Below, piece by piece: positions 1 through 15,698 of a stretch of DNA of 64,000 nt. The stretch's first letter is position 1. Every line of letters starts with the position of its first letter. A program made the position numbers and the translations under genes. Location of the stretch: positions 1 through 64,000 of the forward strand of contig NZ_NFJQ01000002.1 of the NCBI RefSeq assembly GCF_002159945.1, given 5' to 3'. The DNA is from Cloacibacillus sp. An23 (GTDB taxonomy: Bacteria; Synergistota; Synergistia; Synergistales; Synergistaceae). Under the pieces are notes generated by a model. The model saw only the letters and a list, made by a program, of their open reading frames with translations. It had not been told where the DNA came from and did not search any database.

Positions 1-402
1 AAAACCAACCAGTTCAACCTAACGGCGCGGAGATACACCGAAAGCGACATCCGCAGGATGAAAGAAGACGGCAGCCACAAAATCTGGATAGGCGAACTGG
101 AAGACAAATTCGGCAGCTACGGCAAAGTCATACTAGCGATAGTAAGGCTTAAGCCGGAGGGACGCAGAGCCGTGATAGACACATTCCTCATGAGCTGCAG
201 GGTCATGGGGAGGAATGTGGAGACGGAGTTTCTCAAACATATAGAGCATGACCTTAAAGAAGAAGGCATTAAAGAAATCGTAGGCGAGTATATTGAGACG
301 GCTAAGAATAGGGTCGTGAAGGATTTCTTCGCACAGTTGGGATATGTTGCGTTAAGCAACTCTTGTAATTGCTGGCTGAAGCATATTGATTGCTCATATT
401 AG
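1..402 (+). CDS. FkbH-like protein, C-terminal part (5' end outside window)
   Basis: The reading frame is open from base 1, so the ATG at 58 is internal. The visible 133 residues start KTNQFNLTARRY and contain DTFLMSCRVMGR, both hallmarks of FkbH-type proteins (HAD-superfamily subfamily IIIC phosphatase-like domain followed by a GNAT-like tail). Family members load a three-carbon unit or modify sugars and polyketides; in glycan clusters they are thought to help make acyl or glyceryl decorations. The catalytic HAD aspartates lie outside the window. The first 300 bases are richer in GC than the last 100, so the AT-rich island begins within or just after this gene. Family call is firm, exact substrate unknown. 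Confidence 0.8.
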   Translation, partial: KTNQFNLTARRYTESDIRRMKEDGSHKIWIGELEDKFGSYGKVILAIVRLKPEGRRAVIDTFLMSCRVMGRNVETEFLKHIEHDLKEEGIKEIVGEYIETAKNRVVKDFFAQLGYVALSNSCNCWLKHIDCSY

Positions 403-10814: not shown

Positions 10815-11348
10815 TTATAATTTCTCCAGCAGCTTTACAGCCGCAGTCTTCAGGTCGGGGGCGAGGTGGGCGTATACCTGCGTAGTAGTGATGTTCTTGT
10901 GGCACATGAGTTCTTTGACCGTATAAAGGCTGACTCCGGCCATTAACAACTGGCTCGCGAAGTCGTGGCGCATATTGTACCAAGTGATTTTCGGATCGAG
11001 ACCGGCGGCCTGCACCAGCTTGCTGAATGCGCTGTTCCAGTCGACATCACTCCATATCAGACTGAACAGCGATTGGGGACGGACGCCTGTGTTGAGCGAC
11101 ACGATGATGGTGGGGTAGAGCCGCGGAGATTTCGCGCTCTTCGCCGCCTCGATAAGAGCGCAACGCTCCTGCGGCTGGAAATATCTCCTGTCATGAGAAC
11201 TATCAGTTTCCGCCCGCTTTTCCGGCTTGGGCGTCAGTTTTACGTCGTCGGGCGATATCACCTGTTTTTTATGCAGTTTATTTACCATGCCGTAAAGTAT
11301 GGTGATCTTCTTAAATATATGCTTCCTGCTGCGCCGTGCATATGTCAT
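10815..11348 (-). pseudogene. decayed tyrosine recombinase (phage-type integrase)
   Basis: 177 residues against a usual 350-400. Present are part of the core-binding region, the first catalytic arginine (LNTGVRPQSLFSLIW, about 90) and the C-terminal box with NMRHDFASQLL, CHKNITTTQVYAH and the tyrosine. Missing are the N-terminal arm domain and, between WSDVDW and NSAFSKLV, the roughly 50-60 residues that hold the catalytic lysine beta-hairpin. The frame is preserved across that internal deletion. The usual histidine of the HxLR box also reads tyrosine (WYNMR). It should be inactive and marks an old integrated element; no tRNA attachment site is visible. Confidence 0.8.
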
Positions 11349-14840: not shown

Positions 14841-15698
14841 TTACAGGCTTTCGGCTCCGTCGTCATGTCTTGCGGCGTTGGCGGCCAGTTTCCTGGCGCT
14901 GTGCGTCGCGTAGCAGTATTTGCAGCCGTTGGGGCATGTGTCGTAGGCTCCGACGTCTGCGCTTGGTGCGCAGCGGCAGGCCGGCCGCTGATTTTTGTCC
15001 TTTGCGCGCGGCAGAGGGCGGCCCGTGATTTTTTCTATCAGCGCGGCGTCCACGCAGCTTCCGCGCTTTATGCCGAAGCGCGTTAGGGCTGCGTCCTCCG
15101 CGCAGGTTTCGAGCGTCATACCGCAGCCGCGTGCGATTGCGGCAAACTCGCGCGCGAGCGCAGCCCTCTCGTCCGCGTCAGGCGCGCGGAAGCCGAGCTC
15201 TCTCGCGGCGCGGCTCATGCCCCGGTATATGTCGAGATAGCTGAAGACGCAGCGGCGGGTGAAGCCTTCGAGTGCGCGCGCGAATTTCTCAAAGCTCGCG
15301 GCGTGGAATGAGATGTCGTATTTTTCACTTATCAGCAGCGGGTCGTACCTCCATATCACGCGCTCCGGGCCGATCTCACCGGACAAGCGGCGGAAGGCCG
15401 GTATTGCTTCCTTTTCCTTGTCGGGCACGCCCGGCTCTATGTCGCGCCCGTAGGGCGTAACTGTGAACTGGAAGTAATAGGCGTAGTCAGAGAGCCACGC
15501 TAGGCGCGGAAGCATCGGGCGCGGGTCCTTCGTCCAGAATACGATTGCGTCCACGTCTTCCGCGCGCAGGCTGACGCGGCGCGCCTGATTCGGGTTCATC
15601 GGGTTGCGCGCGACGGCGTACCCCGCGCGCAGCCTCCGCATGAACCACTCTGAGTAGCGCGCCGGTATGTCGGTGCGCCGGCTGGCGCTGATTATCAT
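14841..15698 (-). CDS. DUF1848 protein with C-terminal radical-SAM-like cysteine motif
   Basis: 285 residues. The N-terminus SASRRTDIPARYSEWFMRRL, the VFWTKDPRPMLPRL segment and VIWRYDPLLIS define DUF1848. The body resembles the later strands of spore-photoproduct-lyase-type TIM barrels. The C-terminus has C241 and C243 plus C255-x3-C259-x2-C262 in the string TCPNGCKYCYA, which is the spacing of a radical-SAM 4Fe-4S site but at the wrong end of the protein. Function is unknown. It starts 14 bases after the stop of the MBL-fold hydrolase, so the two are likely one operon. Confidence 0.85.
   Translation of the reverse strand: MIISASRRTDIPARYSEWFMRRLRAGYAVARNPMNPNQARRVSLRAEDVDAIVFWTKDPRPMLPRLAWLSDYAYYFQFTVTPYGRDIEPGVPDKEKEAIPAFRRLSGEIGPERVIWRYDPLLISEKYDISFHAASFEKFARALEGFTRRCVFSYLDIYRGMSRAARELGFRAPDADERAALAREFAAIARGCGMTLETCAEDAALTRFGIKRGSCVDAALIEKITGRPLPRAKDKNQRPACRCAPSADVGAYDTCPNGCKYCYATHSARKLAANAARHDDGAESL

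Follow-up and report, generated by a model that had tools for sequence, protein, structure and literature searches.

The DUF1848 protein P0001, encoded in a 64,000-nucleotide window of Cloacibacillus sp. An23 (the window being the whole stretch of DNA that was analysed), very likely belongs to a radical SAM family whose barrel is circularly permuted and which is derived from, or sister to, the spore photoproduct lyase (SPL) and COG1533 proteins. Radical SAM enzymes form one of the largest enzyme superfamilies and are usually recognized by a cluster motif that lies ahead of the barrel. The family is termed permuted here, rather than counted as an ordinary radical SAM member, because its cluster motif is C-terminal. 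The features on which this reading is built are collected in the table.

Table. Features of the DUF1848 locus, in window coordinates.
Feature	Coordinates	Strand	Remark
DUF1848 protein P0001, 285 aa	14841..15698	minus	proposed circularly permuted radical SAM barrel
N-terminal motif S4-A-S-R-R-T-D-I-P12	15663..15689	minus	structural match, near the SPL strand-2 motif around C140-T-S-D143
T56-K57	15528..15533	minus	aligned with the TK motif of COG1533 and SPL
E88 in IEPGVP	15435..15437	minus	86/86; counterpart of EP in COG1533 and SPL
C199, proposed second metal site	15102..15104	minus	86/86; right after predicted strand 195-198
C215, proposed second metal site	15054..15056	minus	86/86
CxC, residues 241-243, half of the proposed second metal site	14970..14978	minus	C241 86/86, C243 85/86
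CX3CX2C cluster motif, residues 255-262 (C255, C259, C262, Y261; Y263 after)	14913..14936	minus	
MBL-fold hydrolase, co-oriented, 13 bp upstream of the P0001 gene	15712..16593	minus	not part of a conserved system

The P0001 reading frame begins with an ATG at 15698 and its stop codon lies inside 14841-15698; the plus strand of the same interval has no open frame. P0001 is matched by the Pfam DUF1848 model (PF08902) over residues 2-264 and the entire profile (positions 1-262 of 262) with 346.5 bits, which passes the cut-off of 30.5. The segment TCPNGCKYCYA occupies residues 254-264 (T254-C255-PNG-C259-KY-C262-YA) and carries the radical SAM signature, CX3CX2C with an aromatic residue before the last cysteine (C255, C259, Y261, C262). 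The initial annotation had this segment ending the protein; it is C-terminal, but 21 residues still come after A264. The five cysteines it named (C255, C259, C262, C241 and C243) are all present in the P0001 translation, but its list lacked two further invariant cysteines, C199 and C215. In an ordinary radical SAM protein the motif stands ahead of the barrel, after strand 1; in P0001 it stands at the C-terminal end. The Pfam Radical_SAM model (PF04055) gives P0001 10.8 bits, below its cut-off of 29.5, and the partial match places residues 253-267 on the start of the profile, positions 5-19 of 166. A permuted branch would thus escape both the motif-first rule and the superfamily profile.

The C-terminal placement of the motif is a property of the family. 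In alignment A2, which comprises P0001 and 85 relatives that are 23-54% identical to it and come from genome and viral contigs, the cluster motif falls in the same C-terminal aligned column in all 86 rows. No additional CX3CX2C occurred within 150 residues ahead of the N-terminal motif in any of 152 open reading frames (near-duplicates included), although these frames were chosen for an N-terminal motif with a downstream cluster motif, a choice that cannot exclude the existence of DUF1848 proteins with the cluster in front. No solved structure was related to P0001 by sequence at a useful E-value. The best match in a PDB profile search with A2 was a radical SAM chain (E 0.071, cluster region only).

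Seven cysteines are conserved in A2, residues 199, 215, 241, 255, 259 and 262 in 86/86 rows and C243 in 85/86, and this conservation reaches down to 23% identity and includes phage members that are ~26% identical to P0001. Cysteine reaches at most 50 of the 86 rows in any other column. Judged from the alignment, the conservation of the cluster motif is far beyond chance. C199, C215, C241 and C243 are equally conserved and probably bind a second metal centre, which may be an auxiliary Fe-S cluster or zinc. S4, S6, D10, W55, E88, R117, Y261 and Y263 are also found in 86/86 rows, T9 in 85/86, and R7 and K57 each in 84/86. The column of R7 contains 84 arginines, one tyrosine and one lysine, and no cysteine.

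An AlphaFold2 model of P0001, calculated on A2, is a TIM-type barrel with a pLDDT of 95.1 and a pTM of 0.92. Its strands span residues 2-5, 51-56, 74-79, 114-121, 149-154 and 195-198, with an additional pair (27-31 and 39-43) and two short strands, 211-212 and 247-248, the latter just ahead of the cluster loop. Plain Foldseek with this model did not rank radical SAM entries high and listed assorted TIM barrels. After realignment with VIA-align, radical SAM enzymes were 21 of the 24 listed PDB entries with Z of at least 8.0, the 21 representing ~10 different proteins with many repeats (RlmN, SPL, Elp3). They include Elp3, RlmN, HydG, SPL, SkfB, a sactipeptide maturase, NifB, ThiH and a methyltransferase; the remaining three entries are 4ov4, 4h41 and 6e1j. 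It had been suggested from the letters of the sequence that the body resembles a photoproduct-lyase-like barrel, and the comparison with SPL agrees: entry 4fhe matched at Z 9.1 and 3.3 A over 175 residues with 15% identity, residues 1..200 of the model lying on SPL 134..341. The SPL cluster cysteines, 117/121/124 in chain letters and 90/94/97 in entry numbering (an offset of 27 fixed from C140 in mutant titles, with the cysteine positions counted by hand), lie ahead of the matched range. Because the SPL match begins after the SPL cluster, the DUF1848 chain appears to start at strand 2 and to end with strand 1 and the cluster loop.

A separate model of the phage member L161 (26% identical) has the same strand order, with a pLDDT of 86.7, a pTM of 0.86 and a poorly predicted tail after the cluster. 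With VIA-align, radical SAM enzymes were 13 of the 15 listed entries with Z of at least 7.4 (five different proteins: SuiB, SkfB, TigE, NifB and SPL), and L161 residues 3..198 matched SPL 116..341. The predicted models of P0001 and L161 therefore both match the radical SAM barrel, at Z values of 7-10 that are moderate and about which the tool itself warns. The weight of the structural reading lies in the enrichment of radical SAM entries, the point at which the match starts and the agreement of two separate models. It is conceivable that P0001 is an unrelated TIM barrel of the sugar isomerase or aldolase kind, in which a C-terminal Fe-S motif arose by convergence and no permutation took place. 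The ranking by Foldseek itself, with dihydroorotase, epimerases and glycosidases first, and the moderate VIA-align Z values are in keeping with this explanation, whereas the predominance of radical SAM entries after realignment, for the P0001 model and for the phage member alike, speaks against it.

Sequence profiles bear on the same question. The cluster segment aligned with the COG1533 (SplB-like) profile at 94.6% probability, residues 247-268 falling on positions 38-59. A doubled DUF1848 profile aligned with COG1533 through the junction, with 247-285 and then 1-123 on positions 38-203 and the TK and EP stretches in order; the score was 66.2, compared to 60.0-61.7 in eight body-shuffled controls. 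The DUF1848 body alone scored 26.5 against the COG1533 profile; 100 column shuffles reached at most 24.3, and a further 60 at most 23.5. An unrelated barrel would not be expected from a body that beats all 100 shuffles, from TK and EP stretches that follow the COG1533 order and have SPL counterparts, or from tyrosines flanking the last cysteine that match SPL and COG1533.

Rotation of individual proteins gave uneven results. Rotated L137, a relative that ends right after the cluster, matched Pfam Radical_SAM with 24.6 bits (E 3.2e-5, profile positions 4-98), compared to 8.8 bits unrotated, and its body-reversed and body-shuffled controls gave 13.7 and 11.4 bits from the cluster only. Rotated L151 matched with 17.4 bits over positions 6-74. 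Rotation carried the Radical_SAM match beyond the cluster in these two of ten proteins and not in P0001, L036, L109, L114, L120, L129, L133 or L140, and the best rotated relative, at 24.6 bits, is still below the cut-off of 29.5. None of four rotated proteins extended past the cluster against the NCBIfam radical SAM families. A COG1533 HMM built from 30 sequences was applied to native, rotated, reversed and shuffled forms of 81 sequences (5 of the 86 rows were dropped as their motif pattern was unmatched), and there was no gain, the rotated median of 11.7 bits equalling that of the shuffled controls (11.7). Against a larger COG1533 profile, the rotated form without its tail scored 62.4, a value that shuffled bodies also attained (100 shuffles, mean 59.6, maximum 77.1); with its tail, the rotated form was no better than the native one (59.3). 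That rotation adds little in most sequences is in favour of the unrelated barrel, an explanation which on all of this evidence we regard as quite improbable. Sequence alone suggests a permutation without proving it.

The proposed permuted barrel can be placed in register with SPL. If the first ten residues are matched without a gap, T9-D10 would fall on SPL S142-D143 and R7 on C140, and the WTK and IEPGVP stretches of DUF1848 are the counterparts of VTK and FEPGTS in SPL. In the profile alignments the TD motif of COG1533 is paired with NPxNP, a stretch further along the chain, instead of SRRTD; because of this disagreement, the register of SRRTD is taken solely from the structural match, and confidence in the permuted barrel is slightly reduced. 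In SPL, S142 and K174 bind SAM.

Taken together, a mechanism may be proposed. The chain would run from strand 2 (residues 2-5, within ISASRRTD) through strands 3-8 to strand 1 and the CX3CX2C loop, where C255, C259 and C262 would carry a site-differentiated [4Fe-4S] cluster. SAM would bind the free iron of this cluster, and the T9-D10 segment and K57 would take the positions that S142-D143 and K174 have in SPL. Electron transfer would cleave SAM to a 5'-deoxyadenosyl radical, which would then take a hydrogen from the substrate, and Y261 and Y263, the counterparts of the SPL relay tyrosines, may pass the radical on. According to one report, the tyrosines that flank the last cluster cysteine of SPL take part in radical transfer (PMC5368176).

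Alternatively, the barrel may derive from radical SAM enzymes and have lost SAM chemistry, the cysteines now binding zinc or an Fe-S cluster with a structural or sensing function. The SAM-site residues are placed by alignment, and the second four-cysteine site could equally hold zinc, both of which leave room for this alternative. On the other hand, T9, D10, K57, E88, R117 and both tyrosines come close to the cysteines in conservation (84-86 of 86 rows). A purely structural site is disfavoured since conservation of the SAM-site residues would exceed what structure needs, and we assign the loss of SAM chemistry a small probability.

An active permuted radical SAM enzyme need not share the reaction of SPL. 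SPL chemistry itself is unlikely in DUF1848 because the hydrogen-donor Cys140 would fall on R7. The corresponding proposal, that DUF1848 is a DNA-lesion repair lyase that splits photoproducts as SPL does, is suggested by the retention of both SPL tyrosines and by SPL structures, which belong to the best structural matches and, by sequence, are the solved proteins related to COG1533. It is very improbable given the arginine at the donor position (84 of 86 rows) and the four extra conserved cysteines, and 70 neighbours of relatives yielded no repair gene in their 25 commonest Pfam families. A nucleic acid or nucleotide is a candidate substrate, offered tentatively since a DNA-repair lyase stands nearest among solved proteins and since DUF1848 turns up repeatedly in phages and next to genes of the methyltransferase-like and defence kinds.

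The initial annotation had taken an operon with the MBL-fold hydrolase as a functional clue. MBL adjoins DUF1848 at the P0001 locus and in a second genome of this genus (L004, MBL 89% identical), that is, only in this genus, and tblastn found no MBL in the other DUF1848 loci (161 loci searched, flanks of ~1.5 to 6 kb). In a sample of 60 genomes, 31 had an MBL match at E <= 1e-20 and 13 had DUF1848; the co-occurrence check that had been proposed found both in 11 of the 13, adjacent in 2. The circular permutation proposed in the same annotation is retained, mainly on structural grounds, but the operon with MBL is not. Elsewhere in the window, a minus-strand open reading frame at 10815-11348 resembles the C-terminal part of a tyrosine recombinase (integrase), as judged by eye from the translation.

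The neighbours of the relatives comprised 92 adjacent same-strand open reading frames, of which 70 were scanned after 22 were dropped by hand (short frames, one judged spurious and one duplicate). PADLOC C3a159, 'methyl transferase', was the most frequent family, in 7 of 70 neighbours, followed by families found in 2 each, among the best 25 of 94 families. A methyltransferase-like gene is the most recurrent neighbour of DUF1848, in a minority of loci. With partner HMMs, which were built from most of the same loci in which the partner was then counted, it was directly beside DUF1848 in 9 of 80 genome-contig loci (L041, L045, L051, where it is fused to a helicase, L066, L073, L075, L088, L092 and L096), and it is also beside DUF1848 in several viral contigs. 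The partner-bearing loci are scattered over the DUF1848 tree, the tree group statistic comparing them with the large-phage group only. Three of four partner proteins gave weak Pfam methyltransferase matches (E 0.011-0.045) and the fourth gave none. The partner gene lies at L041:5116-5994, L092:5132-6004, L118:5084-5989, L115:430-1344 and L051:4116-7472; it often has a cysteine-rich N-terminus, and its ends overlap or nearly overlap DUF1848. The pair looks like a recurrent two-gene module of DUF1848 and a methyltransferase-like protein in unrelated genomes and viral contigs.

A role specific to antiviral defence, as a component of a reverse-transcriptase system (PADLOC RTasDUF1848, DRT), would be in line with the match of P0001 to that PADLOC model (155.8 bits) and with the defence-type genes, AbiEii, Cas3 and GmrSD, that occur among the neighbours of relatives. 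However, the model matches all seven DUF1848 proteins scanned, including phage ones, and therefore marks the family and not the system. No reverse transcriptase came up when 938 neighbouring open reading frames of related loci (flanks up to ~6 kb) were scanned with a crude motif, coverage of the window being confined to 11-20 kb, and the P0001 gene sits beside MBL and a dipeptidase. A defence-specific role of this kind is thus quite unlikely.

DUF1848 was found in 26 of 185 genomes of the phylum, the one phylum that the genome survey covered, and in none of 14 control genomes. It also occurs in eight phage records, two of them near-identical, and in six plasmid records, two of which are versions of one archaeal Methanosphaera plasmid. 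A search of viral contigs with P0001 alone as the query returned none, and with alignment A1 as the query it returned 48 loci, some on contigs above 200 kb. Loci L140-L161, from viral contigs that are in many cases above 100 kb, form a deeply branching clade on contigs of large-phage size; the clade retains all seven cysteines at ~25% identity, and nearby are small genes that are zinc-finger-like by eye and one for a ClpX-like AAA ATPase.

Several relatives depart from the usual form. A Roseburia plasmid (L029:4322-6942) encodes a divergent DUF1848 protein that starts with IIQTGMRTDIP, in an annotated row of DUF1848, a 4Fe-4S protein, a macrodomain ADP-ribose hydrolase and a Sir2 protein. At G017 contig 1:119738-120654 (L025, L027), DUF1848 appears to be in two pieces with a break at profile position 195/196, either a frameshift or a broken copy. 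Extensions of ~100-150 residues follow the cluster in L073, L086, L092 (Bacteroidota, 451 aa) and L081 (404 aa). The viral structure library BFVD yielded three matches to the P0001 model at E <= 0.001. A piece of a 1278-residue protein of the crAss-like phage cr272_1 (A0A7M1RU68) matched with E 2e-10 and a TM of 0.69 of the query, and a 111-aa Pithovirus LCDPAC01 protein (A0A481YM45) is 31% identical over 86 columns. From the predicted structures, these two are possible further DUF1848-like proteins.

A search of an open-access library yielded no paper on DUF1848, PF08902 or IPR014998 and none on a permuted radical SAM barrel, PMC1282579, PMC10853773, PMC4215206 and PMC10332631 being among those consulted. 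If the proposed permutation is correct, DUF1848 would be a case in which relocation of strand 1 and its cluster loop to the chain end leaves the active site in place, and a domain without an assigned function would become an enzyme open to testing, with two predicted metal sites. It is tempting to speculate further, though we hold this composite picture to be doubtful, that DUF1848 is the first natural permuted radical SAM barrel, the product of one ancient rearrangement from which a family arose that has since reached several bacterial phyla, an archaeal plasmid and large phages, with a second four-cysteine centre; that its radical modifies or repairs nucleic acids, at some loci with a methyltransferase-like partner; and that it serves phages as a tool of counter-defence or DNA modification.

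Comparison with known systems places the family, among solved proteins, closest to SPL (4fhc/4fhe). The predicted DUF1848 barrel superposes on SPL from strand 2 onward, and the relay tyrosines around the last cluster cysteine are kept as Y261 and Y263. Unlike SPL, in which the cluster segment precedes the barrel, DUF1848 has it at the C-terminus, and the hydrogen-donor cysteine at the end of strand 2 (C140 Gt / C141 Bs) is absent, with R7 in its place if the match is ungapped. No SPL counterpart is known for the four extra cysteines. The COG1533/SplB-like proteins (NCBIfam NF033668, rSAM_PA0069) share the cluster segment CxxxCxYCYA but differ in the order of segments. NF033668, whose cut-off is 360 bits, did not match P0001 at E <= 1, and gave three unrotated relatives 13.2-15.4 bits. 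The genome of P0001 itself encodes a COG1533-like relative of normal order (G000 contig 3, 122.7 bits, below the family cut-off). DUF5131 (phage Gp37/Gp68, PF07505) is likewise a COG1533 relative of normal order by profile (58.8); it was rejected as the parent of DUF1848, the body score of 15.6 lying close to the shuffle mean of 15.4 (maximum 28.1). PADLOC RTasDUF1848 (DRT-associated) models the same protein family as P0001. P0001 is a full-length member of Pfam PF08902, a model named as a domain of unknown function. The Pfam entry already remarks that the C-terminal cysteines resemble a radical SAM cluster, and the raw observation of these cysteines is probably not new. What the present analysis would add to the Pfam description is the permuted barrel, its register with SPL and the second four-cysteine site.
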